IMG/VR virus record: IMGVR_UViG_3300035698_029912
Span: 1 to 23,940 of that record
Origin: a virus
Reading direction: 5' to 3' (one strand)
DNA length: 23,940 bases
Made by a program: the position numbers and the translations under genes
Part shown: positions 1,331 through 22,169 of the stretch, one piece after another
Position numbering within the stretch: position 1 is the stretch's first letter
Layout of the letters: each line of letters opens with the position of its first letter
Notes under the pieces: model-generated
Told to the model about the DNA's origin: nothing
The model's input: the letters and a program-made list of their open reading frames with translations, nothing else
Database searches by the model: none

Positions 1331-3790
1331 ATGGAAAGTGATAATATAATTTATAAATATTCAGAAGCTTTTGAAAATAGTAAAGAATATTTTGACGGAG
1401 ATGAATTAGCTGCTAAAGTATTTGTGGATAAATACGCCTTAAGGAACAAAGAAGGAGATATATTAGAAGATACTCCTTGTAAAATGCACAGAAGATTATC
1501 AAGAGAATTTGCTAGAATAGAAAAAAAATATCCTAATCCTATGTCAGAGGAAGAAATATTTAATTTAATAGATCATTTTAAATATATTATTCCTCAAGGT
1601 TCTCCAATGAGCGCTATTGGAAATCCTTATCATATTCAAAGCTCAGGAAATTGTTTCGCTATAGAACCACCACATGATAGTCATGGTGGTATTTTTTATA
1701 CTGATCAACAAATGGGACAATTGATGAAGAGAAGATGTGGGGTTGGTATTAGTTTAAACAAATTAAGACCTAAGGGAGAGATTGTTCAAAACGCTGCAAA
1801 GACAACTGATGGAATAGGTGTTTTTATGGAAAGGTTTAGCAACACATGTAGAGAGGTAGCACAAGCAGGAAGAAGAGGGGCTTTAATTCAATTGTTAAAT
1901 GTTCATCATCCAGAAATAAAAACTTTTATTACTATTAAAAAAGATAAAACAAAGGTTACAGGAGCTAATATCTCCATACAAGCAACAGATGAATTTATGA
2001 ATGCAGTAAAGAATAATGAAGAATTTGAATTAAGATGGCCAGTCGATAGTAAGAATCCTAAAATATCTAAGAAAGTTATGGCTAGAGAAATATGGGATTT
2101 ATTTATCGATGCAAGCTACGAGAGTGCTGAACCCGGTATATCATATTGGAGCACTGTTTTAAAAAATAGTGTATCTAATTGTTATGGAGTAGTAGATGAT
2201 ACATTTTATGATACTGCTTCAAATCCTTGTGGAGAAATAATTATGGGAGCAGATTCTTGTCGTTTATTAGCTTTAAATTTATATTCTTTTGTCGAAAATA
2301 AATTTACTTCAAAAGCCTTCTTTGATTATGACAAGTTTAAAACCTATGTTCAAAAAGCACAAAGAATGATGGATGATTTAGTAGATTTAGAAATAGAACT
2401 TATACAAAGAATTATAAGAAAAATAAAATCAGATCCTGAACCAGAACATATAAAACAAATAGAAAAAGAAACATGGAAGAAACTATTAGAAACTTGTAAA
2501 AAAGGAAGAAGAACTGGATTAGGAATAACAGGACTAGCAGACACTTTAGCTTCTTTAAATCTTAGATATGGTTCAAAGAAATCAATAGAGACAACAGAAG
2601 AGATTTATAAAACATTAGAAATAAATGCCTATAAGAGCACTTGTACTTTAGCAAAAGAAAGAGGACCATTCCCTATTTTCTCTTTTGATATTGAGAAAGA
2701 TAATATCTTTATAAATAAAATTTTAAAAGAAGATAAAGAATTAAGGAAGATGTATAAAAAATATGGAAGAAGAAATGTAGCACTAACTACTACTCCTCCT
2801 GCTGGATCAATATCATTAGAAGCTCAGGTTTCGTCAGGAATAGAGCCAGTCTTCTCTGTAAAGAGTATTAGAAGGAAAAAGATACATGAAGGTGATAAAA
2901 ATATTAAGGTAGATTTTATAGATTATATGGGAGATAAATGGCAAGAATTTATAGTCTATCATAAGGGATTTACAGATTGGCAAAAGATAACAGGAAAAAC
3001 AAAAATAGAAGATTCTCCTTATTATAAAGCAACTTCACAAGATATAGATTGGGTTGCTAGCGTAGATATTCAAGCTGCAGCTCAAAAATGGATATGTCAT
3101 TCTATATCTAAAACTTGTGTCCTTCCTAAAGACTCTACAAAAGATTTAGTAGAAAAAGTATTTTTAAGAGCATGGGAAAAAGGATGTAAGGGATTTACAG
3201 TATACAGAGATGGATGTAGATCTGGAGTGCTAATAGACGCTACTAAACAAAAAGAAGATATCGAAGTCTCTAATATAACTAAAACTACCTCTCCTAAAAG
3301 ACCTAATGAATTGCTAGGAAACTTGCATCATGTTTCTGTAAAAGGAGTTAAATATTTTGTATTAGTTGGAGTGTTAAATAATATAGAACCATATGAAATT
3401 TTTGCAGGACATAAAGATATACAAAAATTACCAAGTAAAGTAATTATTAAAAAGAAAAAAAGAAATACATATTGCATCTTAGATATAAATACAAAAGAAA
3501 TATTATTAGACGATATCTCAAAAAATATTAATGATGAGGAAGAATCTTTGACTAGAATGATATCATTAGGATTAAGGCATGGAGCTGATATTAACTTTGT
3601 TACTCATCAATTAGAAAAGACTAGTGGAGATATGCTAGGGTTTTCTAAAGCTGTTTCAAGAGCTTTGAAAAAATATATTAAAGACGGAAGTATGGTGCAT
3701 GGGGAGAATTGTCCAGAGTGTAGCGGAGAACTTAGAAGATCAGAAGGGTGTGTTTCGTGCTCTTTGTGTGCGTATTCTCGATGTAGTTAG
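1331..3790 (+). CDS. nrdJ: Class II (B12-dependent) ribonucleotide reductase
   Basis: This enzyme reduces ribonucleotides to deoxyribonucleotides using adenosylcobalamin, which supplies DNA precursors for phage replication. Its 819 residues fit the long NrdJ subclass. Visible active-site elements are C108 in SSGNCFAI, N298/C300/E302 in NPCGEI (thiyl-radical Cys and partners), and C310 in SCRLLALNL (redox partner of C108). A TTTPPAGSISLE loop lies near residue 487, followed by SSGIEPVF. The C-terminus has the NrdJ-type tail: a CPEC zinc-ribbon half, then GCVSCSLCAYSRC, which supplies the reducing cysteines. GGAG at 1320-1323 supports the start. The nearby dut gene fits a nucleotide-metabolism cassette. 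No intron or intein is visible: the reading frame is continuous and all motifs are present. Confidence 0.95.
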   Translation: MESDNIIYKYSEAFENSKEYFDGDELAAKVFVDKYALRNKEGDILEDTPCKMHRRLSREFARIEKKYPNPMSEEEIFNLIDHFKYIIPQGSPMSAIGNPYHIQSSGNCFAIEPPHDSHGGIFYTDQQMGQLMKRRCGVGISLNKLRPKGEIVQNAAKTTDGIGVFMERFSNTCREVAQAGRRGALIQLLNVHHPEIKTFITIKKDKTKVTGANISIQATDEFMNAVKNNEEFELRWPVDSKNPKISKKVMAREIWDLFIDASYESAEPGISYWSTVLKNSVSNCYGVVDDTFYDTASNPCGEIIMGADSCRLLALNLYSFVENKFTSKAFFDYDKFKTYVQKAQRMMDDLVDLEIELIQRIIRKIKSDPEPEHIKQIEKETWKKLLETCKKGRRTGLGITGLADTLASLNLRYGSKKSIETTEEIYKTLEINAYKSTCTLAKERGPFPIFSFDIEKDNIFINKILKEDKELRKMYKKYGRRNVALTTTPPAGSISLEAQVSSGIEPVFSVKSIRRKKIHEGDKNIKVDFIDYMGDKWQEFIVYHKGFTDWQKITGKTKIEDSPYYKATSQDIDWVASVDIQAAAQKWICHSISKTCVLPKDSTKDLVEKVFLRAWEKGCKGFTVYRDGCRSGVLIDATKQKEDIEVSNITKTTSPKRPNELLGNLHHVSVKGVKYFVLVGVLNNIEPYEIFAGHKDIQKLPSKVIIKKKKRNTYCILDINTKEILLDDISKNINDEEESLTRMISLGLRHGADINFVTHQLEKTSGDMLGFSKAVSRALKKYIKDGSMVHGENCPECSGELRRSEGCVSCSLCAYSRCS

Positions 3791-4969: not shown

Positions 4970-5437
4970 ATGAAAGAAGTAAAAATAAAAGTTAAAAAAT
5001 TAGATCCAAGAGCAATAATTCCTAAATATCAAAGAGAAGGAGATGCAGGTTTTGATTTTCACGCTTTATTAGAAGAAGGAATAGAATATATTGTAGTAAA
5101 TCCTAGTAGTCAAATGATTATTAATACAGGTATATCTTGTACTATCCCTGAAGGATATGAGATACAAGTTAGACCTAGAAGCGGACTATCATATAAGTAT
5201 GAGATAACAGTAACAAATAGTCCAGGAACTATTGATTCAGGATATGTTATCCCTAATGAAATTAAAGTTTTAATTTATAATTTATCTTCTAAGAATTCTT
5301 TCGTTATTAAAAATGGAGATAGAATTGCTCAAGGAGTATTATCAGAAGTTCCAACTGCTATTTTCGAGGAAGTAGAAGAAATAGAAGATGAAGATAAAAA
5401 TAGGGGTGGTGGATTTGGATCAACCGGAATAAAATAA
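4970..5437 (+). CDS. dut: dUTP diphosphatase
   Basis: This enzyme hydrolyses dUTP to dUMP and pyrophosphate, keeping uracil out of DNA and feeding dTMP synthesis. All trimeric dUTPase motifs are visible in 155 residues: GDAGFD (24-29), RPRSGLS (68-74), SPGTIDSGY (84-92, with the catalytic-site Asp D89), GDRIAQ (116-121) and the C-terminal P-loop-like GGGFGSTG (147-153). One deviation is that the usual 'DYRGE' after GTIDS reads GYVIPNE, so that loop is slightly longer and lacks the Arg. An AAGGAG Shine-Dalgarno precedes the ATG, and a strong terminator lies about 20 nt after the stop. Together with nrdJ it supports phage control of nucleotide pools. Confidence 0.96.
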   Translation: MKEVKIKVKKLDPRAIIPKYQREGDAGFDFHALLEEGIEYIVVNPSSQMIINTGISCTIPEGYEIQVRPRSGLSYKYEITVTNSPGTIDSGYVIPNEIKVLIYNLSSKNSFVIKNGDRIAQGVLSEVPTAIFEEVEEIEDEDKNRGGGFGSTGIK

Positions 5438-9767: not shown

Positions 9768-11675
9768 ATGGCTAAAGAAAAACAATATATAGGAGATTTG
9801 ATTGATGATATACAATTAGATCTTAAAGATAATACAGTAAGAAAAATACCAGATATCATTACATTTGTAGAAGCTAAGGAATGGTTAGGTTTGTCTCATC
9901 GTGCAGCAAATCCTATTTATTTATATACTGTGCAAAGAATAATGTTAAAAACATTTTATAGAGGAAGTATTGGAAATGAGAATATAGAATTAACAGATAT
10001 AGAGATAAAATTACTTAAAGAAATAGGACTAGATGATAATAGTCATGGAAATGTTATAGAAAAATATAATAATGGAAATTTATTTAGAGAATTAGTATTA
10101 GTATGGGGAAGAAGAGCTAGTAAGGATTTTGTAACTTCTATTATAGCCGCTTATGAGGCTATGAAATTATTAGAATGTCCTGGTGGAAATCCTTATGCTA
10201 TGTATGAATTATCTTCTGCTAATACTATTAACATTCTTATTGTAGCTAACTCTAAACCTCAATCTAATATTGCTTTCTCAGAAATAAGAGAAAAAATATT
10301 TCATAGTGAATATTTTAAAGATAAATATATTAAAGAGGGTATTGGAGCTGGGGCTATTTATCTTTTAACTCCACAAGATAAAATAGATAATAAAGAATTT
10401 AAAGAAAAAGGGCTACCTCAGAAAAAAGGGTCTATAGGTATTATTGTTGGGCATAGTAACTCTGACTCATTACTTGGTATGGGATGTATCGTTCTTATTC
10501 TTGATGAGGTTGCTTCTTATAAAACAACAGGAGGGTCATCATCTGGAGACCGTATTTATGCTGCTCTTACTCCTACTGTTCAGACATACGTTAGGAAAAC
10601 ATATGTTAAAGATGAAAAAGGAGAATTTGTTTATAACGAACATAATCAAAGAATCATAAAAGAAAGAATTTATGATGGTAAGATAATTAGTATTTCTTCT
10701 CCAAGAGCTAAAGAAGGAAAATTTTATCAGTTATTTAATGAGGCCTGTAATGTTCCTACTAGACTTGTAATGAGGATAGCTACATGGGATGTAAATCCTT
10801 CTCATACTAGAAAGTCTTTGAGAGATGATAATAACAGTATGTCAGAGACTGAATTCAATATGGAATTTGGTGCTGAATTTAGTGGAACAGGATTGGAAAG
10901 CTTTTTCACGGAAGAACAAATAAAGCCGTGTTTCCTTGGTCATAATTTACAAAATATAACAATGGGGTCTACTGGAAAAACTTATTTTGTGCATTTAGAC
11001 CCAGCTACTTCAAGTCATAATTATGCATTAGTTGTGCTTCATAAGGAAGTATATATGAATCCGGCTACTCAAAAAGCCGATTATAGAATAGTTGTTGATC
11101 ATATTAAATATTGGCAACCTATAAAAGGGCCGATTAACCCTAATGAAGTTATGCAATATGTTATAGGTTTAAAACATAAATTTCATATAGGATTGATTAC
11201 TTATGATTCTTGGGCCTCTCAAGAAAGTATTTTAAAAATGAGAAAAGCAGGAATTCCTAATAAAGAAACAAAATTTACAGGTATTTATAAATTTAAAATT
11301 TATAAAGAATTAGAGACTTTAGTAAATACAGGAAGATTATTTATTCCTTACGAACATCTTTTATATAATGAAATGATAGAATTGCAAAGAAAATTTACAC
11401 CTACTGGTTTTAAAATTCTTCCTAAAAAAGATGGAGATGGGGTTAAGTCTGATGATGTCGTGGATTGTGTTGCAGGAGCTGCTTATATCGCAATAGAAAA
11501 ACAAATGAAAGGATTGCCTCATTCTAGACTGGTTAATTTCGGAGACCTTAGTGGGAATAATACTGTTTGGAAGAATATGCAGGGAGGAGTGATTGGAGTT
11601 GGTAGCGGACAAAAAGTCGCTGCTTCATTGGAAAACAGAAGTAGATTATGGAAAGATATCCATAGAGGAAGATAA
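9768..11675 (+). CDS. terL: Terminase large subunit
   Basis: This is the ATP-driven DNA packaging motor and headful/cos nuclease. I place the start at ATG 9768 because AAAAGGGAAAGA lies just before it; an in-frame TTG at 9732 inside the previous gene is unlikely. The ATPase domain has a Walker A-like LVWGRRASKDF (K119), Walker B CIVLILDEVA (D246, E247) and a coupling motif ISSPRAKEGKF. The C-terminal RNase H-like nuclease has VHLDPATSSHNYA (D411), ITYDSWAS (D480) and KSDDVVDCVAGAA (D562/D563). The Walker A is unusual: the Gly before the Lys is Ser and the following Ser/Thr is Asp. At 635 residues it fits a large-phage terminase. Confidence 0.93.
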   Translation: MAKEKQYIGDLIDDIQLDLKDNTVRKIPDIITFVEAKEWLGLSHRAANPIYLYTVQRIMLKTFYRGSIGNENIELTDIEIKLLKEIGLDDNSHGNVIEKYNNGNLFRELVLVWGRRASKDFVTSIIAAYEAMKLLECPGGNPYAMYELSSANTINILIVANSKPQSNIAFSEIREKIFHSEYFKDKYIKEGIGAGAIYLLTPQDKIDNKEFKEKGLPQKKGSIGIIVGHSNSDSLLGMGCIVLILDEVASYKTTGGSSSGDRIYAALTPTVQTYVRKTYVKDEKGEFVYNEHNQRIIKERIYDGKIISISSPRAKEGKFYQLFNEACNVPTRLVMRIATWDVNPSHTRKSLRDDNNSMSETEFNMEFGAEFSGTGLESFFTEEQIKPCFLGHNLQNITMGSTGKTYFVHLDPATSSHNYALVVLHKEVYMNPATQKADYRIVVDHIKYWQPIKGPINPNEVMQYVIGLKHKFHIGLITYDSWASQESILKMRKAGIPNKETKFTGIYKFKIYKELETLVNTGRLFIPYEHLLYNEMIELQRKFTPTGFKILPKKDGDGVKSDDVVDCVAGAAYIAIEKQMKGLPHSRLVNFGDLSGNNTVWKNMQGGVIGVGSGQKVAASLENRSRLWKDIHRGR

Positions 11676-11744: not shown

Positions 11745-12545
11745 ATGAAAAAATTTAATTTAAGAAAAAAAGCTAGTTCAAAAGATTATTCTATAGCTGA
11801 CAAAACATTAGATAAGAATAGAAAAGATATGAACCTATCTAGTGGACAACAAGGAGTAGTAGAAAAAAATATAAATCTTAGTTTGCCAATTAAGGACAAA
11901 GATAATACCGTTCCTTTTGAAAAACAACTAGAAGCAGAAAGAAAAAATGAAACAAAGGTTTCTATTATAGAATCTAGCATGAGTAAAGAAGAAGTGAATT
12001 TTGGAGACAAAACAGAAGGTGCAATACCCATTAATGTTAAAACAGAAGAATACAATCAAGATCATCTAAAAGATTTTAAAAGCGCAGAAGATAAATCTAA
12101 ATTAGATACTGGATTCTGGGATAAATATGTTGGAGTTCAGTTAGAAGGAGAAGGGTTTCCTACAAAAATTGATAATAATATCCCTGCTTCTACTAGTCAA
12201 TTACAAGATAATCCTGATAGATTTAAAGGAAAATCAGTTGATAAAATGATTATGGCTTCTATTAAAGATGCTGATGCAATGTTATTTCATATTTACTCTC
12301 TAGCTGCTAAATCAAATAGAGAACTTAATGATAGAGAACAACAACAAATAATTGATATTAATTCAGGCAAAATGAGATTAATTAGAGAAGCAAGAGTTCC
12401 TGTAGGTTATTCTCCAGGAGTAAAAATTACAGAAGGAAAAAGAGGAGAAGGAGTTGTTTCTGAAAACGGACAAGTAATAGACACTCTTCCTAGTGTAGTA
12501 GAGGCAAAAACTAATTACCCAGAAGGGGAAATTAATAATGCCTAA
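11745..12545 (+). CDS. Hypothetical hydrophilic protein after terL
   Basis: This is a 266-aa charged protein of unknown function. The N-terminus (MKKFNLRKKAS) is basic and similar in style to the short MK-type leaders of the later genes. Residues 1-90 are low complexity and probably disordered. The more ordered part includes SAEDKSKLDTGFWDKYVGVQ (about 113-132), a DRFKGKSVDKMIMAS segment and a helix DADAMLFHIYSLAAKSNREL. It looks like a conserved large-phage protein, and its place between terL and the following small genes suggests a head or connector-related role. The AGAGGA at 11731-11736 is an adequate Shine-Dalgarno. The stop overlaps the next start by 8 nt. Confidence 0.7.
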   Translation: MKKFNLRKKASSKDYSIADKTLDKNRKDMNLSSGQQGVVEKNINLSLPIKDKDNTVPFEKQLEAERKNETKVSIIESSMSKEEVNFGDKTEGAIPINVKTEEYNQDHLKDFKSAEDKSKLDTGFWDKYVGVQLEGEGFPTKIDNNIPASTSQLQDNPDRFKGKSVDKMIMASIKDADAMLFHIYSLAAKSNRELNDREQQQIIDINSGKMRLIREARVPVGYSPGVKITEGKRGEGVVSENGQVIDTLPSVVEAKTNYPEGEINNA

Positions 12546-15859: not shown

Positions 15860-16471
15860 ATGAAAACAATTTTATCAAAAAAATATAAAAAGAAAAAAAT
15901 TTCATTTGTTTTAGTGCATGGGTGGGAAGGAAGCCCTAATAAAGATTGGTTTTTATGGATAAATAAGAAATTAATCAAAGATGGATATGATGTATTAAAT
16001 ATGTCTATGCCTAATTCTTTTCATCCAAATAAAAATGAATGGGTTAAACATTTAGAAGATCATGTGGATTTATCTAAAGATACTTTTTTTATTGCTCATA
16101 GTTTAGGGGCAATAGCCGTTTTAAAATATTTGGAAAAAATTAATAAAAAAGTAAAGGGAGCTATCTTAGTTGCCCCTTATATTATTAATGAGCAAGGATA
16201 TAAGACTGTTTCTTCTTTTTATAGTAGAAAAATTGATTGGTCAAAAGTTAATAAAAATTGCAACAAGTTTTTTACTATTTTTAGTGATAATGATCCATTC
16301 GTGTCTTTAGACCAATATTGTCATATGAAAGATAAAACAAATGTTGATTTAATGGTTCTTAATGATAGAGGGCATTTTTCAGATGACGATAATATTAAAG
16401 AATTGCCAGAGTTATATGATATTATAAAAAAGAGGTTTTTAAATGAAAATAATAAAAACAACAGAATATAA
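15860..16471 (+). CDS. RBBP9/YdeN-like alpha/beta serine hydrolase
   Basis: This is a compact 203-aa alpha/beta hydrolase. Visible elements are VLVHGWEGSP (oxyanion region, about 18-27), the nucleophile elbow FIAHSLGAIAV (Ser about 82), an acid loop FSDNDPFVS and the catalytic His in DRGHFSDDD. The HGW..SP opening and the short cap-less size fit the RBBP9/YdeN family, which acts on small esters; the true substrate is unknown. A basic extra N-terminal leader (MKTILSKKYKKKK) precedes the first beta strand and resembles the starts of several following genes. ATG 15860 lies just after the previous stop, and the 3' end overlaps the next gene by 29 nt. Confidence 0.85.
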   Translation: MKTILSKKYKKKKISFVLVHGWEGSPNKDWFLWINKKLIKDGYDVLNMSMPNSFHPNKNEWVKHLEDHVDLSKDTFFIAHSLGAIAVLKYLEKINKKVKGAILVAPYIINEQGYKTVSSFYSRKIDWSKVNKNCNKFFTIFSDNDPFVSLDQYCHMKDKTNVDLMVLNDRGHFSDDDNIKELPELYDIIKKRFLNENNKNNRI

Positions 16472-16625
16472 AGAGCTTTTTGATAAGATTTCTAATGAAG
16501 AAAAGCAAAAACATGTAGATAATTTTGAAAAAAATTTAAAGAAAGAATTAAATACTAAAAAGAAAAATGAAGAACCATTGCATTCTTTAGATATGCATTG
16601 TGATGGTTTGGACGATGGATATTAA
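16443..16625 (+). CDS. Hypothetical 60-aa protein with MK-type leader
   Basis: A small charged protein begins MKIIKTTEYKELFDKI and is otherwise a Lys/Glu-rich helix with an acidic C-terminus (HCDGLDDGY). AGAGG at 16431-16435, 7 nt before the ATG, supports the start inside the 3' end of the hydrolase gene. It is unknown in function. The leader is shared with the hydrolase upstream and the next two genes, which suggests membership in one co-targeted set. Confidence 0.55.
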   Translation: MKIIKTTEYKELFDKISNEEKQKHVDNFEKNLKKELNTKKKNEEPLHSLDMHCDGLDDGY

Positions 16626-16628
16626 TAA

Positions 16629-16886
16629 ATGAAAATACTTTTATCAAAAAAATATAATAAAGAGAATAAAATAATAGAAGAATTAGCGGAATTAGAGCAT
16701 AAACAATGGATGCTTTGGGCAAAAGATATTTTAAAATCAGAAGAAATAACAAAAGAAAGAGCAGATAGATGGGAGAAGGATAGTTTTAAACCTTATAAAG
16801 ATTTATCTGAAGAGCAAAAAGATATGGATAGAGAATGGGCAGAGAAAGTTTTAAAAATAGTTAAAAAACACAAGGTGGAGAAATGA
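16629..16886 (+). CDS. Trp-rich RyR-like small protein
   Basis: After the leader MKILLSKKYNKENK, residues about 17-80 read ELAELEHKQWMLWAKDIL, then RADRWEKDSFKPYKDLSEEQ, then DMDREWAEKVL. The order 'H-x-x-W … R-W-x … PY-x-x-L-x-E-x-x-K-x-x-D-R-x-[WA]-A' is that of small phage and bacterial proteins related to the RyR domain, which in other proteins is a nucleotide- or ligand-binding module. In phages the ligand is unknown. The gene starts 3 nt after the previous stop and overlaps the next start by 4 nt. Confidence 0.65.
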   Translation: MKILLSKKYNKENKIIEELAELEHKQWMLWAKDILKSEEITKERADRWEKDSFKPYKDLSEEQKDMDREWAEKVLKIVKKHKVEK

Positions 16887-17176
16887 AAATATTAAAAACG
16901 GCAAATTTTAATAAATTATCTGCACCTGTATCTTTTAAACATAAGTGTGATGATTGTGGGGAGTTTACTTATTTAACAAAAAGGGATATGGGTAGAGCCG
17001 CTATTCCAAGATGTCGTTTTTGTGGATCAACTTGGCTAGAACCTGCCACAGAATATGCTAAAAATAAAATACAGCAAGGTTATGACAAGCATCGCGGAGA
17101 TATAGAATTAAAACGAGATAAGACAAATTTTAAAAATAAGAGAATGAATGAAGAATTTTCTAATATGAGTATTTAA
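16883..17176 (+). CDS. Zinc-ribbon protein with MK-type leader
   Basis: The leader MKILKTANFNKLSAP is followed by a zinc ribbon: HKCDDCGEFTYL (CxxC) and a second pair in RCRFCGSTWLEP. The rest (about residues 55-97) is a Lys/Asn-rich basic tail. The two CxxC knuckles with a spacing of about 20 residues would bind one structural zinc. A nucleic-acid or protein-binding role is possible, and no catalytic residues are evident. An upstream GGTGGAG and the ATGA overlap with the previous gene support the start. Confidence 0.7.
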   Translation: MKILKTANFNKLSAPVSFKHKCDDCGEFTYLTKRDMGRAAIPRCRFCGSTWLEPATEYAKNKIQQGYDKHRGDIELKRDKTNFKNKRMNEEFSNMSI

Positions 17177-17186
17177 GGAAAATAAA

Positions 17187-17612
17187 ATGAAAAAATATGG
17201 TCAATCATCAGTTTGGGATAGTTTAATTAGAATTATGCCTGAATTTACAGAACAAGTTATAAAATCTCCTACCTATGTAAATCCTATAGCTGCTAAATTC
17301 TTATACAATATATGGAGAACAGGATCTCAAAAGAAAACTAATAAAATTTATAAGAAACCTGTTACACTAGGCCAGGAAGAAATGAGAGTAATGAAAGAAG
17401 CAGGACTAATAAAACTAATAGGAGATAATATAGAAATAACAGAAAAAGGGTCTGAAGTTATTAATGTTATGATTTTAGGAGATGATAGGTCTATTTTTGA
17501 GGATGATGGATTAGTTGTCGATTATAATCTGGCCTTAAATAATACGAGAGCAGTAAAAACTGCTAAAGTGAGAAAAATAGCTTCTAGTTGGTGGGATAGG
17601 TTTGAGAAATAA
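17187..17612 (+). CDS. Possible winged-helix protein
   Basis: This 141-aa protein starts MKKYGQSSVWDSLIRIMPEF. The central part (about residues 60-95) reads VTLGQEEMRVMKEAGLIKLI followed by GDNIEITEKGSEVI. That pattern of a recognition-like helix, a short beta wing and the 'ITEKG' turn is typical of winged helix-turn-helix proteins. The C-terminus TAKVRKIASSWWDRFEK is basic and aromatic. Fold assignment is by pattern only. It could be a small regulator or a structural protein. AAGGAAAATAAA precedes the ATG. Confidence 0.55.
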   Translation: MKKYGQSSVWDSLIRIMPEFTEQVIKSPTYVNPIAAKFLYNIWRTGSQKKTNKIYKKPVTLGQEEMRVMKEAGLIKLIGDNIEITEKGSEVINVMILGDDRSIFEDDGLVVDYNLALNNTRAVKTAKVRKIASSWWDRFEK

Positions 17613-17630
17613 AATTATAATGAGGTAGAG

Positions 17631-18065
17631 ATGGAGATTGTAACAATTTTTTATAATGTTAGTAATGATCATCCTAAAGAGAGTATAGAACAAGAGCTTA
17701 ATTGGTATGACCCTATTAAAAAAGAAATGCAAGTGTTAGTAGGTGGTAAATTAACATTTATATATGAAAAAGACGACTATTTAGTAAAGATGGGAGAAAT
17801 AGAGAGAAAAAGAAGAGGGATATCTAGTACTTATAGGATGTTGCCAAAAGCTGGAAAAGTAGAAGTAGAGAATTATAATATAACTAATAGAACTACTAAT
17901 CAAAAAGAAATAGAGAAATGGTTTAGTAGTTATTTAAATTATAATAATAGTAATATTTCGATAGAAAATAAAGAGTATGTTGCAATAGAATTTAATGTTC
18001 CAAATAGCGAAATAGACGATTTTACTTATCAAGCAGAAAGAAATGGTTTTAGGTATAAAATATAA
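17631..18065 (+). CDS. Hypothetical 144-aa protein
   Basis: I do not recognise this protein. It looks compact, with an alternating alpha/beta pattern: EIVTIFYNVS, QVLVGGKLTFIYEKDDYLV, a helix KEIEKWFSSYLNYN and a closing strand YVAIEFNVPN. A Shine-Dalgarno-like GAGGTAGAG precedes the ATG. The stop overlaps the next start (TAATG), implying co-translation with the 62-aa gene that follows. Confidence 0.65.
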   Translation: MEIVTIFYNVSNDHPKESIEQELNWYDPIKKEMQVLVGGKLTFIYEKDDYLVKMGEIERKRRGISSTYRMLPKAGKVEVENYNITNRTTNQKEIEKWFSSYLNYNNSNISIENKEYVAIEFNVPNSEIDDFTYQAERNGFRYKI

Positions 18066-18253
18066 TGGAAAGAAGAAAACATAAAAACGACACTAAAGCC
18101 AATACTCATCGGGATAGATGGGAAAGAGGGAAAGGATGTAGATGGAATTACAAACATAGTGATTGGACTATTGACGGAAAATTAAAGAAACTAAAAATAT
18201 TTGAATTAGAATTGGATAAATTAATAATATTAGGAGAATTAAATGAGATTTAG
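18065..18253 (+). CDS. Hypothetical 62-aa basic protein
   Basis: This small protein has a very basic, His/Trp-containing N-terminal half (ERRKHKNDTKANTHRDRWER) and an amphipathic Leu/Ile-rich C-terminal helix (KLKIFELELDKLIIL). It overlaps both neighbours, by 1 nt upstream and 11 nt downstream. Function is unknown. It may be a nucleic-acid-associated peptide, but it is supported only by position and coding-like composition. Confidence 0.5.
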   Translation: MERRKHKNDTKANTHRDRWERGKGCRWNYKHSDWTIDGKLKKLKIFELELDKLIILGELNEI

Positions 18254-18449
18254 AATTAACCCAAGAGGCGGAAGAGGATTAGGACCTTGTGGAGGAGGAA
18301 GAGTAAGAGGATTTGGTTGCGGCAGAGGCTCAGATAAAGCGATGGGACTAGGTAGAGGACTAGGTAGAAATACTGGAGAATGTTCTCAAGGAGGACCAGG
18401 ATATGGTCAGGGAAACGGTCAAGGAATGGGAAGAAATAGACAAGGATAA
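18243..18449 (+). CDS. Glycine-rich small protein (DUF5320-like)
   Basis: The 68 residues are dominated by Gly, Arg and Gln (RGGRGLGPCGGGRVRGFGCG, then GLGRGLGRN and GYGQGNGQGMGRN), with three cysteines. It resembles the glycine-rich DUF5320-type small proteins in low-complexity composition, although similarity of such sequences is weak evidence. AGGAGAATTAA lies directly before the ATG, which supports translation. It is likely disordered; RNA, DNA or metal binding are possible but unproven. Confidence 0.6.
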   Translation: MRFRINPRGGRGLGPCGGGRVRGFGCGRGSDKAMGLGRGLGRNTGECSQGGPGYGQGNGQGMGRNRQG

Positions 18450-18457
18450 ATTAATAA

Positions 18458-18826
18458 ATGATTAAACATTATTTAAAAGTAGATATAGCAGAAACTCCTT
18501 ATCAACATCAAAGAGGTTTGATGTATAAAACTAAATTAGGAGAAGATAGTGGTATGCTTTTTAAGTTTAAAAGACCACAAAATCTAAAGTTTTGGGGATT
18601 AAATACTTATATACCTCTTGCTATAGCTTTTGTTTCCCCAGAAAAAGAAATTGTTAAGATATCATATATAAGTCCATGTTCTACTAGTATGGTAGATAGC
18701 GAAATAGATTGTGACGTAGCAATCGAAGCGAATTATGAATTTTTTAAGAAAAATAAGATAAATGTTGGTAGCAAGGTAGAAGTAATACATCAAGATTATT
18801 CTACTCTTGTTAAGTTTGTAGATTAA
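18458..18826 (+). CDS. DUF192 family protein
   Basis: This is a 122-aa DUF192 (COG1430) domain covering almost the whole protein. It has the family order: VDIAETPYQHQRGLMYKTKL (the RGLM signature, about 8-27), GMLFKF, FWGLNTYIPLAIAFV (usually F-W-M-x-N-T) and a late strand ending AIEANYEFF. The family is small, beta-rich and functionally uncharacterised; bacterial members are often exported, but no signal peptide is seen here. It is found sporadically in phages and archaea. It is followed 11 nt later by the next gene. Confidence 0.85.
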   Translation: MIKHYLKVDIAETPYQHQRGLMYKTKLGEDSGMLFKFKRPQNLKFWGLNTYIPLAIAFVSPEKEIVKISYISPCSTSMVDSEIDCDVAIEANYEFFKKNKINVGSKVEVIHQDYSTLVKFVD

Positions 18827-18837
18827 GGAGAAATTTT

Positions 18838-19200
18838 ATGAAGTTTAAGTTGTCAGATGTTTATAATTTAGTAAGAAGTTTGCCAAAAATAACAGATAAA
18901 GAATTACCAATTAAAACGAGCTATAAACTGTTAAGGTTGTTAAAAAGCTGTTCAGAAGAAATGGAGACTCTTGAAAAATCAAGAATAAAAATAGTTGAGA
19001 AATATTCTGAAAAACCAGATGAGGCAGGAAACTTTAAAGTGAAAGATGAAAATAAGGATAAATTTACAGAAGAATTTACAAAATTATTAGAAGAAGAAGT
19101 AGAAATAGAATTCACAAAAATTGAAATTAGTGAATTAGGAAATATATCTTTTTCTGTAAATGACCTTGCTCCACTAGATAAAATCATAAAAGAAAAATAA
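18838..19200 (+). CDS. Helical phage protein, unknown function
   Basis: This 120-aa protein begins MKFKLSDVYNLVRSLPKITD, followed by ELPIKTSYKLLRLLKSCSEE, a helical-hairpin-like segment and a Glu-rich helix (FTKLLEEEVEIEFTKI). The pattern 'lp-x-K-x-[AS]-Y-x-[IL]-x-[RK]-L' with an E-rich middle recurs in small tail or assembly-region proteins of several phages in my recollection. No role is established. AAGGAG precedes the ATG with good spacing. Confidence 0.65.
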   Translation: MKFKLSDVYNLVRSLPKITDKELPIKTSYKLLRLLKSCSEEMETLEKSRIKIVEKYSEKPDEAGNFKVKDENKDKFTEEFTKLLEEEVEIEFTKIEISELGNISFSVNDLAPLDKIIKEK

Positions 19201-19236
19201 AACAAGGAATTTAATATTTTTTTTATAAACTAACTA

Positions 19237-21291
19237 ATGAAGATTATTACTGTAAAAAAAAATGCAAAATCATTTAACGAACTGTATGATTATATTGATG
19301 ATGATACAGTAGAACAGCTAGACAAGTATGAGACTAATGATTTTGATACTATAGATTATGACGCATTAGAAAGAGGAGAAGTTCCTGTAGTAGAAATTGA
19401 TGATAATGGCGTAGAAAGTATTTTAACTGATAATTTAGAAGAACAAGTAGAAGAAGAACCTATTGTAGAAGGTCCATTAGAAGAAGATAGAGTAGAAGAA
19501 GAACCATTAGAAGAAATAGCGATTGAGGGAGAAGATGTTCCTAATTTTGCTAATACTTTAGAGGCAATGCAATGGGCTATTGATGAGAATAGAGTTGTTA
19601 AAATATTTTATACAACAAAAGGTAAAATAAGCGGCCGCGGCGGTAAGGAATATCTATTAAGAGAAAAAGGTTTAAAAAAAGGACCTGCTGGAGGGGTTGG
19701 TATTTATAGAGTAGTTGAACCTCATTATATGTATTCAGCAGGAAATGGGAAACTTATTTTAGTAACATATGATAGATCGGTGAGACATATTAGAGCTTTT
19801 ATAGTTGATAATATTACTGATTATAATTTTACTAAAAATAGAATGACAAAGGAACCACAACATTTTAAATCTAGAATTAGGGTTATGCCAAAATCAGGAA
19901 AAGGAATAAAAAACATGGAAAATATAAATGATAACTTAACAGGAATAGAAGCCACACTTAAATCTAAAGGAATGGTTAAATCAGCTTCTATTGTTAATGA
20001 CGCTATCAAGGCATTTACAAATTTAAAAACAGCTCAGTATGTTGGAGTCCAGGGTTATTGGATTAGAAATAGAAGATGTTGGGATAATTGCTATAGACAC
20101 AAAAGAGCAACTCAACCTAAGTCTGCTGCACAAGAGGTATGGATGGAGTGCTGGGATGAGTATAGAGAATCTATAAATAATCCTCAGAGTGGATGGGAAA
20201 AATATGCTACAGAAAAAAAATCTATTAAAATAAGCTCTAAAGACGAAAAAGAATGGAATAAATTATTTATATCAAAAGTGGAAGGTAAAACTAAGGACGG
20301 TCTTTCTACTCCAGAATCTATTTATGCAACAATAGAAGAAGAATCTCAAAGATATTTAGATAAGCTAGTAAATAGTTCTTCTGATTTGTTGGTTTTGGCA
20401 GAAACATTTAATGACAATAATATGAAAGATGTAGGAAATAAGTTGGCAGAAATTTCTGCTGAGATGTTAAAAGAAGCTGGTCTTTTTGATTGGGTTGGTG
20501 GAAAAATTGGCGATTGGGCTGCTAAAAAGGGAGTTCTTTTAAAAGAATTAGAAAGTTTTGCTATTAAAGCAAATGAGTTAGCAGAAAGAGTTAGACAACA
20601 AATTAGATATCAGAGATCTTCGACTGAAAATAAAAGTATTATAATAGAAGCTGGTAAAAAAACAAAAATTGTGGAAGCAAAAGATTTTGGTGACTACCCA
20701 CCAGCATTTGGCGATACTCCTACTCCTGCTCCTGCTCCTGATCCTGCTCCTGCTCCTGCTCCTGCTGCAACAGGTGGGCAAATGGGCATTATTAGAGAAA
20801 TGTATCAATTAGCAAAAGAAGCGGATAATCTTATTGGGTGGATAGGTAGTAATGTTCCTATGGATAATCAAAGAGTTAGAGGAATTGCTCAATCAGCAAG
20901 ATATAATCTTATGCAAGGTGCAAAAAATATTAGGAATTTATTATCTCAAACTAATAATATTAATTATGCTTCAATGGCAAAATCATTAGAAGAAATGGCT
21001 CAAACGGTTAATATGGCACAAGAAGCATTGTATAAAGAAGACGATCAAGCTGCTCCTCAAGCTGCTCCTGAGGTTGCTCCCGAGGATATTCCTGCGGAAG
21101 CTCCCGAGCCTGCTCTTGAGGACACCCTTGAAACAGACTCTCCTACAATTGAGCAAATGTCTACAACTCCTTATTCTGTAGAGAATATTATTAAGAATGT
21201 AAGAGCAGAGGATATAAAATCATTAATAGATGCTTTATTAAGAGAAGCTCAATCAAGAAAAGTTATGGATAGAAACTTAAAATTTAAATAA
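19237..21291 (+). CDS. Large multidomain virion-type protein with WYL-like domain
   Basis: This 684-aa protein starts with an MK-type leader (MKIITVKKNAKSFNELYDYI) and an acidic low-complexity stretch (about 45-100). Residues about 105-205 resemble a WYL-type domain: LEAMQWAIDENRVVKIFYTT, a middle strand YRVVEPHYM and RHIRAFIVDNI, here without a DNA-binding partner domain. Next comes a Cys/Trp-rich module (WIRNRRCWDNCYRHKRA … VWMECWDEY, about 275-325), long helices, a Pro-Ala linker (about 495-510) and a helical C-terminus with a second AAPxxAPE acidic linker. The modular structure suggests a virion, scaffold or internal head protein. Function is unknown and no catalytic motif is evident. Confidence 0.7.
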   Translation: MKIITVKKNAKSFNELYDYIDDDTVEQLDKYETNDFDTIDYDALERGEVPVVEIDDNGVESILTDNLEEQVEEEPIVEGPLEEDRVEEEPLEEIAIEGEDVPNFANTLEAMQWAIDENRVVKIFYTTKGKISGRGGKEYLLREKGLKKGPAGGVGIYRVVEPHYMYSAGNGKLILVTYDRSVRHIRAFIVDNITDYNFTKNRMTKEPQHFKSRIRVMPKSGKGIKNMENINDNLTGIEATLKSKGMVKSASIVNDAIKAFTNLKTAQYVGVQGYWIRNRRCWDNCYRHKRATQPKSAAQEVWMECWDEYRESINNPQSGWEKYATEKKSIKISSKDEKEWNKLFISKVEGKTKDGLSTPESIYATIEEESQRYLDKLVNSSSDLLVLAETFNDNNMKDVGNKLAEISAEMLKEAGLFDWVGGKIGDWAAKKGVLLKELESFAIKANELAERVRQQIRYQRSSTENKSIIIEAGKKTKIVEAKDFGDYPPAFGDTPTPAPAPDPAPAPAPAATGGQMGIIREMYQLAKEADNLIGWIGSNVPMDNQRVRGIAQSARYNLMQGAKNIRNLLSQTNNINYASMAKSLEEMAQTVNMAQEALYKEDDQAAPQAAPEVAPEDIPAEAPEPALEDTLETDSPTIEQMSTTPYSVENIIKNVRAEDIKSLIDALLREAQSRKVMDRNLKFK
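20716..20769 (+). repeat. CCTGCT hexamer repeat encoding a Pro-Ala linker
   Basis: Near-perfect 6-nt units ([C/A]CT-CCT-GCT type) encode PTPAPAPDPAPAPAPAA. This is a flexible linker between helical domains of the 684-aa protein, and it is prone to length variation by slippage. Confidence 0.85.
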
Positions 21292-21365
21292 AAAAAGGTT
21301 TTTAATAAAATAATTAAAATAGTATAAAAGGATATAAATTTTAAAAATTTATAAAGGAGAAAGAA

Positions 21366-22169
21366 ATGAAGTTTATTACAGACAGAATTAGCACCGGAAA
21401 GGCTAAGAGTTTTGACGACCTTATTCAAGATTACAGAGACAAACAAGAAGTAAAAACTGCCTCTGTTAAAGTTGCAGAAGAAAAAGACGAAGGCCCTTCA
21501 AGCGGGCAGCTAGCTGTTGAGCCTCTTCATCAAAAAGGAGAGTCAACAACAATGCCTAAAAATGGTCCAAGTGCTAAAAAAGAAGGTGGAGATACTTCTT
21601 CTAAATCAAAGGGTTCGGGAGAAAAAGAAGAAGCTGCATCAAGTGGTCAGCCTGAAGCTGAAGGTAAACTAGTTAATGACCCTAAGGTTCCTTCAAAAGA
21701 GGAAAAGGGTGGTTCAACAGTAGAAAAAGTTAAAGTAGCAGAATCTAAGTGTGAAAAATGCGGAGAACCATGCGGAGAATGCAAATGCGATGATTGTGAT
21801 TGTAAGTCTTGCACAGCAGCTAAAGAAGATGCTAAAATTAAAGAAGCAGGTATAAAAGGCAATTGCTCAAAATGTGGCAAACCTAATTTCCTTTGCAAGG
21901 GTAAATGTAGTGGAGAAGAAAGTAAAGATGATGACGGCAAAACGAAGGAACCTGGAGTACCAGATGGCACAGGGCCTATGAAAGATAGTGATGAATGCCC
22001 TAAGAATAAGGAAAAAGATGAAGAAAAAGATGAAGAAAAAGAATCTGCCAATAAGACAGAATTTGTAAAAATTGCTAATCTTGATGGAAAGAATAAGTCT
22101 TTCTTAAAAGAATATTGGAGACAGTTGTTTGGCGATGACTATGTAAGTGCTCTAGTTGCTGATAAGTAA
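21366..22169 (+). CDS. Acidic disordered protein with Cys clusters
   Basis: This 267-aa protein shares with the previous gene an AKSF-x-x-L leader (MKFITDRISTGKAKSFDDLI). It then is Ser/Gly/Lys/Glu-rich and disordered. Two Cys clusters lie at about 127-148 (ESKCEKCGEPCGECKCDDCD, then CKSC) and at about 166-181 (CSKCGKPNFLCKGKC), suggesting bound zinc or another metal. The C-terminal 30 residues look ordered (IANLDGKNKSFLKEYWRQLF, then GDDYVSALV) and may be the binding end. The composition suits a head-internal, scaffold or targeting protein. A strong AAAGGAGAAAGAA precedes the ATG. Confidence 0.7.
   Translation: MKFITDRISTGKAKSFDDLIQDYRDKQEVKTASVKVAEEKDEGPSSGQLAVEPLHQKGESTTMPKNGPSAKKEGGDTSSKSKGSGEKEEAASSGQPEAEGKLVNDPKVPSKEEKGGSTVEKVKVAESKCEKCGEPCGECKCDDCDCKSCTAAKEDAKIKEAGIKGNCSKCGKPNFLCKGKCSGEESKDDDGKTKEPGVPDGTGPMKDSDECPKNKEKDEEKDEEKESANKTEFVKIANLDGKNKSFLKEYWRQLFGDDYVSALVADK

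Follow-up and report, generated by a model that had tools for sequence, protein, structure and literature searches.

Short N-terminal leaders on unrelated proteins of phage-G-like giant phages: a probable capsid-targeting system with candidate prohead-protease sites

Introduction

Why should neighbouring genes that encode unrelated proteins begin with almost the same few residues? This question is raised by the virus record IMGVR_UViG_3300035698_029912 of IMG/VR, which covers part of the genome of a phage-G-like giant phage. The window analysed here is the entire record of 23,940 bases. A first-pass annotation had described a short basic leader at the N-terminus of six genes between positions 15,860 and 22,169 and compared it with the capsid-targeting sequence (CTS) of phage T4. 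The internal proteins of T4 are diverse counter-defence proteins that share the capsid-targeting sequence as their only common part (PMC3012670). Ten residues are sufficient for the targeting of IPIII, a 7-residue N-terminal propeptide is removed from Alt, and the protease gp21 carries a site at its own residue 9 (PMC9026906).

Here we report that the leader is almost certainly real and functional at the level of the peptide. By its sequence patterns and by analogy to T4, the leader proteins are probably packaged in the capsid. The large terminase of the window (9768..11675; this and all window features below lie on the + strand) was the query for finding relatives. It is 75-77% identical to the terminases of four longer IMG/VR records, including G001 with 547,943 bases (76% for both G001 and G004); for four further IMG/VR records the identity is about 50%. 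The major capsid protein of the relatives is 55% identical to gp27 of Bacillus phage G.

Results

Four firm leaders and a probable one in the window

All six starts are present in the window. We scored them with a 10-residue profile built from 25 leaders of related phages, none of which came from the window and from which the orthologue of gene 16883 had been removed; the background consisted of 251 MK-starting proteins of G001 (548 kb) and phage G. Four starts beat the entire background (0/251 each): MKIIKTTEYKELFDKIS on a protein of 60 amino acids with a ribosome-binding site (16443..16493, gene 16443-16625; 18.2 bits), MKILKTA on a zinc-ribbon protein (16883..16903, gene 16883-17176; 15.7 bits), MKTILSKKYKKKKIS on a serine hydrolase (15860..15904, gene 15860-16471; 8.4 bits) and MKILLSKKYNKENK on an RyR-domain protein (16629..16670, gene 16629-16886; 8.0 bits). 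The start MKIITVKKNAKSF of a 684-residue head-module protein (19237..19275, gene 19237-21291) is marginal at 1.7 bits (2/251 background). It is retained as a probable leader since its orthologues begin with MKRIDTKKYAVNF, MRIISSSKFAEQF and MLIINSSKFAQQF and thereby resemble true leaders such as MKIIKTKKFADTF. The N-terminus MKFITDRISTGKAKSF of the 267-residue protein (21366..21413, gene 21366-22169) fails the profile at -8.0 bits (39/251 background). Its orthologues start with MKLITNRISTGKAKRF and MQFITNKIKTGKAPRF; this start is conserved within its own family, its likeness to the leaders is coincidental and it does not belong to the set. The AKSF-x-[ED]-L block that had been taken to unite the last two proteins is kept by their orthologues only loosely, as xxF-x-[ED].

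The bodies behind these leaders are unrelated. The hydrolase matches the Pfam family Ser_hydrolase with an E value of 7e-27 from residue 17 onwards, which agrees with the proposal that its leader is an add-on ahead of the first strand; a K-I-S directly precedes this strand, and the start is unambiguous because no other start codon lies upstream of that strand. No homologues of the hydrolase were found among the viral contigs searched. The RyR assignment is less secure (E 7e-6, a match slightly short of the curated cut-off) and the zinc ribbon is weak. Related phages retain leaders, and at a given locus the leader may stand on a different body. One homologue of the zinc-ribbon protein was found, and this orthologue (G004:13543) begins with MKILKTANYEKLA. 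The G003 orthologue of the RyR protein is 80% identical, aligns only from residue 15 and has its own start MKIIKTEKY; the RyR homologues L240 and L242 are without a leader. At the DNA level, the leaders of genes 15860 and 16629 are 93% identical over 27 nucleotides and the flanks (40 nucleotides before, 60 after) are only about 33-35% identical. This looks like a copied leader and indicates that new genes can acquire leaders by copying.

Leader families across the lineage

In the relatives, leaders of the form MKIIKTA[NK]Y stand on 27 and those of the form MNWYKK[AS] on 29 unrelated body families, counted with the leaders removed; the phage G form MKRLIKK[AS] stands on 16 body families counted in the same way. 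These phages thus have one hallmark of a T4-type capsid-targeting system, a short N-terminal leader common to unrelated proteins. In G001, 11 proteins begin with M[NS]WYK; both kinds of leader occur in G002-G004. In a blind count of N-terminal tetramers, NWYK was observed 10 times in G001 at an expectation of 0.01; it is among the most over-represented tetramers there and the top one in G002-G004. The top tetramer of phage G is KRLI, with 8 occurrences versus 0.13 expected. Together with the profile and the K.[AS] counts given below, these numbers confirm that the leader is enriched over other MK-starts.

The leaders are also specific to the lineage. DNA encoding MNWYKKA occurs in 22 stretches in 2.9 million viral contigs, including contigs of 104-548 kb. 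The capsid protein of the lineage was matched in 13 of 18 records chosen by their MNWYKKA or MKIIKTA leaders, 12 times at 72-84% identity over most of its length and once (G010) by a short, weak match (E 7e-8); when only MNWYKKA-selected records are considered, 10 of 13 carry it. As a direct search found this capsid protein in only about 100 of the 2.9 million viral contigs, the association is far beyond chance. The pattern MKIIKTAKY gave two matches in 257 Gb of cellular genomes. An exact scan for MKIIKTA returned 48 stretches, but its counts were not used as statistics because only about ten are true gene starts. The literature searched, including overviews of jumbo phages, contained no mention of the exact leader strings, nor did we find a description of the phage G MKRLIKK[AS] as a leader.

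Judged from these recurring starts, the window leader is one of several forms within a broader system, which also takes in MNWYKKA, MKRLIKKA, FNLKKA and the start of the prohead protease itself. A related leader of the FNL type, MKKFNLRKKA (11745..11774), opens the gene after the terminase (11745-12545) and shares its FNLxKxA-type start with G004:10332, G005:19086 and G007:34757; PFNLKKAQ recurs at the 3' end of the window. The first-pass annotation had hit upon a real feature and the right analogy, which it drew from weaker examples than those that the related phages offer.

Two further sets of shared starts were seen. The start MKI[RK]xGF[VI]SNSS is found on unrelated bodies in 11 tandem genes of G001 (L076; G001:88790-93786) and 3 tandem genes of G003 (L109; G003:83425-85078). 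Genome-wide, seven proteins of G001 start with MGRDVY (0.01 expected in the blind N-terminal count), which is unexplained.

Variable slots in the head module

The gene order from terminase to capsid is kept in G001-G004 and largely kept in G005-G007. Beyond the point at which the window ends, G004 continues with an intein-containing portal gene and a head maturation protease that likewise has an intein and is fused to a long acidic tail; further on come a small conserved protein and the major capsid protein. Within this module, two variable slots house leader genes, one between the orthologues of genes 14279 and 17187 and the other directly before the protease. The same slot holds different leader genes in different relatives, and exchangeable cargo would be expected to look like this.

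A common hydrophobic-Lys-x-Ala/Ser core

Both leader types, MNWYK and MKIIKTA, converge on hydrophobic-K-x-[A/S] (phi-K-x-[A/S]), and this core matters more than the basic character by which the leader had been described. We counted K.[AS] within the first 16 residues of leaders that had been found without selecting for that residue and compared the counts with 2,000 shuffles. The core is present in 37/43 MNWYK starts (shuffled mean 13.0, max 24) and in 25/32 MK[IV][IL][KR][TS] starts (shuffled mean 9.7, max 18); among ordinary starts, it occurs in 8-10% in G001 (outside the head module) and in 14-23% in phage G. Where position 7 is neither Ala nor Ser, K-x-A often follows a few residues later, as in MNWYKRQLKIA, MNWYKLLKIA and MNWYKLENYTKQA.

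The same core stands at junctions of the protease and of head proteins. The protease start, MxxxKxA, has K.[AS] within its first 12 residues in 34 of 39 sequences (shuffle 6.1, max 14). A second, pre-catalytic site of the protease has the consensus [IVM]-K-T-A-S (mostly [IVML]) and was found in 36/39 (shuffle 7.7, max 15); P1 and P3 are fixed here by the expression used for searching, so that P4, P2 and the finer detail at P1' are the independent positions. Ala38 of this site is invariant in 28 sequences, including gp19 of phage G and gp331 of Tunturi_5. A 140-residue head protein with a divergent N-terminus has K.[AS] in 37/42 sequences (shuffle 11.6, max 20), and the core is also present in the portal C-terminus and in other head-module proteins. 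The longer pattern phi-K-[TVIK]-A-[SNATQ] occurs 9-15 times in the head modules of G001-G004 versus about 1.1 expected from shuffles; outside the head module, there are 23 copies versus 15 expected in G001 and none in G004, with numbers near expectation elsewhere. These patterns make it likely that the core is a site of the prohead protease.

Four candidate protease sites lie within window proteins. In the protein of gene 21366, VKTAS (residues 29-33; 21450..21464) corresponds to [IV]KTA[SA] in the G001-G004 orthologues and VKIAN (residues 234-238; 22065..22079) to FVKIAN in those of G003, G004 and G006. In the 684-residue protein, VKSAS (residues 247-251; 19975..19989) is found as [VI]KSA[SA] in G002-G004, and LKTAQ (residues 263-267; 20023..20037) as K[ITK]AQYVG in G001, G002, G003, G005 and G007. 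Elsewhere, LKSAA or IKTAA stands near residue 20 of the capsid proteins of two other giant phages, Tunturi_5 and LR745208 (L131:22358, L132:11419), and is a possible capsid cleavage site.

A protease resembling assemblin and gp21

The protease has a PHROG match to head maturation proteases (E 2.5e-5). Its H103 and S154-M-G are invariant, and the catalytic His/Ser motifs of an assemblin/gp21-type protease are present. In an AlphaFold model computed with 37 homologues, residues 52-256 are folded and residues 1-43, which hold both core sites, are predicted to be disordered. The best solved structures found by Foldseek were the proteases of human cytomegalovirus (HCMV), herpes simplex virus 2 (HSV-2) and pseudorabies virus (E about 1e-3, probability 1.0) as well as T4 gp21, and the best predicted viral structure was phage G gp19. 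The fold alignments are partial, with query TM-scores of 0.17-0.28 for the solved structures and identities of 13-17%; the top solved-structure matches all belong to one enzyme class. No useful match came from a profile search against solved structures. By predicted fold and catalytic motifs, the enzyme resembles the assemblin/gp21 type, and the model places it in the right class for the proposed cleavage. A very long scaffold-like tail is joined to the enzyme, and the whole protein has about 1,700-2,400 amino acids.

Inteins were seen in the protease, apparently right at the catalytic G-TSMG motif (G004:28083-34892), and in the portal (G004:21936-25301, L111). Several relatives appear to have them and others not.

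Proteins that carry the leaders

Domains recognized in leader proteins comprise ART-PolyVal, HicA toxin, AAA_33 kinase, SLT transglycosylase, 2H phosphoesterase/Acb1-like and DUF5661. HicA, ART and the AAA_33 kinase are found on leader proteins of G001 and the Acb1-like protein in a relative; the window adds the serine hydrolase and RyR, and phage G adds ParB_N in gp284 and SLOG in gp345. Domains such as ART and ParB-like ones typify proteins that are injected along with the DNA of phages or plasmids (PMC5512222). Several leader proteins of phage G, namely gp251, gp336, the protein at 446709, gp123 and gp141, show Y/FHGT or YHHTS soon after the leader. By eye these are ADP-ribosyltransferase-like; those scanned gave no Pfam match.

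Another observation in the window concerns a large protein at 1331-3790, which by eye has the look of a ribonucleotide reductase and adjoins a dUTPase-like gene (4970-5437).

Discussion

Enrichment of the leaders and their conservation in related phages support the T4-like logic that had been proposed for the window, and capsid targeting is the best-supported explanation of the leader. By analogy to T4, we infer that the leader binds the prohead core, is cleaved, and leads to packaging and injection. A protein whose leader ends in hydrophobic-Lys-x-Ala/Ser, such as MKIIKTA, MNWYKKA or MKRLIKKA of phage G, would be taken into the prohead core alongside the fused protease-scaffold protein. The assemblin/gp21-type serine protease would then cut after Ala/Ser and free the cargo inside the head, from where it would leave with the DNA and reach the host. 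New cargo could be acquired by adding a leader to an unrelated open reading frame.

Several observations weigh against capsid targeting with cleavage at the core. The core site was not found in the major capsid proteins of the clade and of phage G, and many MNWYK genes of G001 lie outside the head module. Within the window, K.[AS] stands at residue 7 only in 16883; 15860 and 16443 have only a later, distant K-I-S and no such core was found in the leader of 16629, so cleavage may be limited to some of the leaders. The motif itself is short and lysine-rich, and the shuffle tests overstate independence somewhat since orthologues are phylogenetically related and the shuffles preserve composition alone. 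Finally, gene starts were taken from a simple in-house caller, although the leader starts are backed by their recurrence.

The leader could instead merely be recognized or cut by the prohead protease, or be bound by the protease-scaffold protein, and have no targeting role of its own, with entry into the head depending on the bodies or on co-assembly. The conserved part is indeed mainly the P4-P1 core, which also occurs inside long head proteins. However, the residues that precede the core (MNWY, MKII, MKRL) are conserved within each leader type beyond what P4-P1 would need, and we consider this explanation unlikely. In giant phages, a short shared N-terminal tag could also serve import into another compartment during infection, for example a phage nucleus or replication body. 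A search of seven large relatives and of phage G, with a positive phiKZ control, gave no homologue of the phiKZ nuclear shell protein; a very diverged shell protein would escape such a search. Moreover, import does not explain why the core stands at the pre-catalytic junction of the protease. This makes a compartment signal very improbable.

The common start might also reflect translation initiation, for which the early codons would be rich in AT and in lysine, or a 5' cassette that hitch-hikes along. AT-rich phages often have MK starts with AAA codons, and the near-identical leader DNA of genes 15860 and 16629 between dissimilar flanks shows that DNA copying occurs. Yet the codons vary synonymously across 56 MNWYK starts, Trp-Tyr would be odd for an initiation feature, ordinary MK starts of the same genomes are unlike the leader, and the core also lies deep inside the protease and at the C-terminus of the portal. 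We therefore see very little room for an origin at the nucleic acid level. Chance likeness of lysine-rich N-termini would fit the shortness of the motif and the failure of 21366 in the profile, but hardly deserves credence in view of the four starts unmatched in 251 background proteins, the blind tetramer enrichment and a heptapeptide scan that recovers one virus lineage. After the profile, tetramer, codon, flank-identity and shell-protein tests, chance, translation initiation and a phage nucleus are all weak explanations.

The proposed capsid-targeting system most closely recalls the CTS of T4 on IPI-IPIII and Alt, which is processed by gp21. In both cases, a short N-terminal leader sits on unrelated, fast-changing proteins; it ends in the protease motif in T4 and in a candidate protease motif here. 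An ADP-ribosyltransferase and an anti-restriction protein are among the T4 cargo, and the T4 protease has a site near its own N-terminus (PMC3012670, PMC9026906), where the protease of this lineage has a candidate site. The leader sequences differ, however, and Glu at P1, as in T4, was not found here, where P1 is Ala or Ser and P3 is Lys. The leader system would work like the CTS, but because of this P1 we do not file it as a homologue of the T4 CTS. Further differences are the fusion of the protease to a long scaffold-like tail and the spread of leaders over dozens of body families per lineage. With phiKZ and SPN3US, whose sites are AXE or S/AXE, the lineage shares a motif that recurs several times in giant-myovirus head proteins, a preference for Val at P4 and Ser at P1', and diverged paralogues whose N-termini are identical over 15 residues (PMC5694885, PMC10052503). 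Those phages cut after Glu and most SPN3US propeptides exceed 100 residues, whereas the site here would be phi-K-x-A and the leaders have about 7 residues.

Phage G itself has the MKRLIKK[AS] leader family and a protease, gp19, with LVKTA before the domain; it differs in the leader sequence and in that gp19 is a separate short gene without the long tail. Herpesvirus assemblin (UL26, with its M and R sites) is similar in the fold match of the protease model and in the fusion of protease to scaffold. Assemblin cleaves between Ala and Ser at [VLI]-x-A-S. To our knowledge, the assemblin site is not known as a tag on packaged effectors in herpesviruses. Herpesvirus assemblins are fused to scaffold and free themselves by cutting at two sites (PMC8537868).

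It is mostly unknown which proteins a giant phage injects, and no one fold is common to the cargo; a tag of the proposed kind would list them from sequence, and in phage G it would list about 19 proteins if our interpretation is true. It would then also offer a cleavage motif that can be tested for a protease lineage whose fold and sites are herpes-like, and would be a candidate for use in the laboratory, where proteins of choice could be tagged for loading into very large phage heads. On balance, we favour the view that phage-G-like giant phages may possess a portable injection tag of about 7 residues that ends in an assemblin-type Ala/Ser site and can be fused to any protein. Each genome would then come with an exchangeable set of effectors and anti-defence proteins, up to a dozen or more in number, that can be read off its sequence, and the tag would share its cleavage chemistry with herpesvirus capsid maturation.

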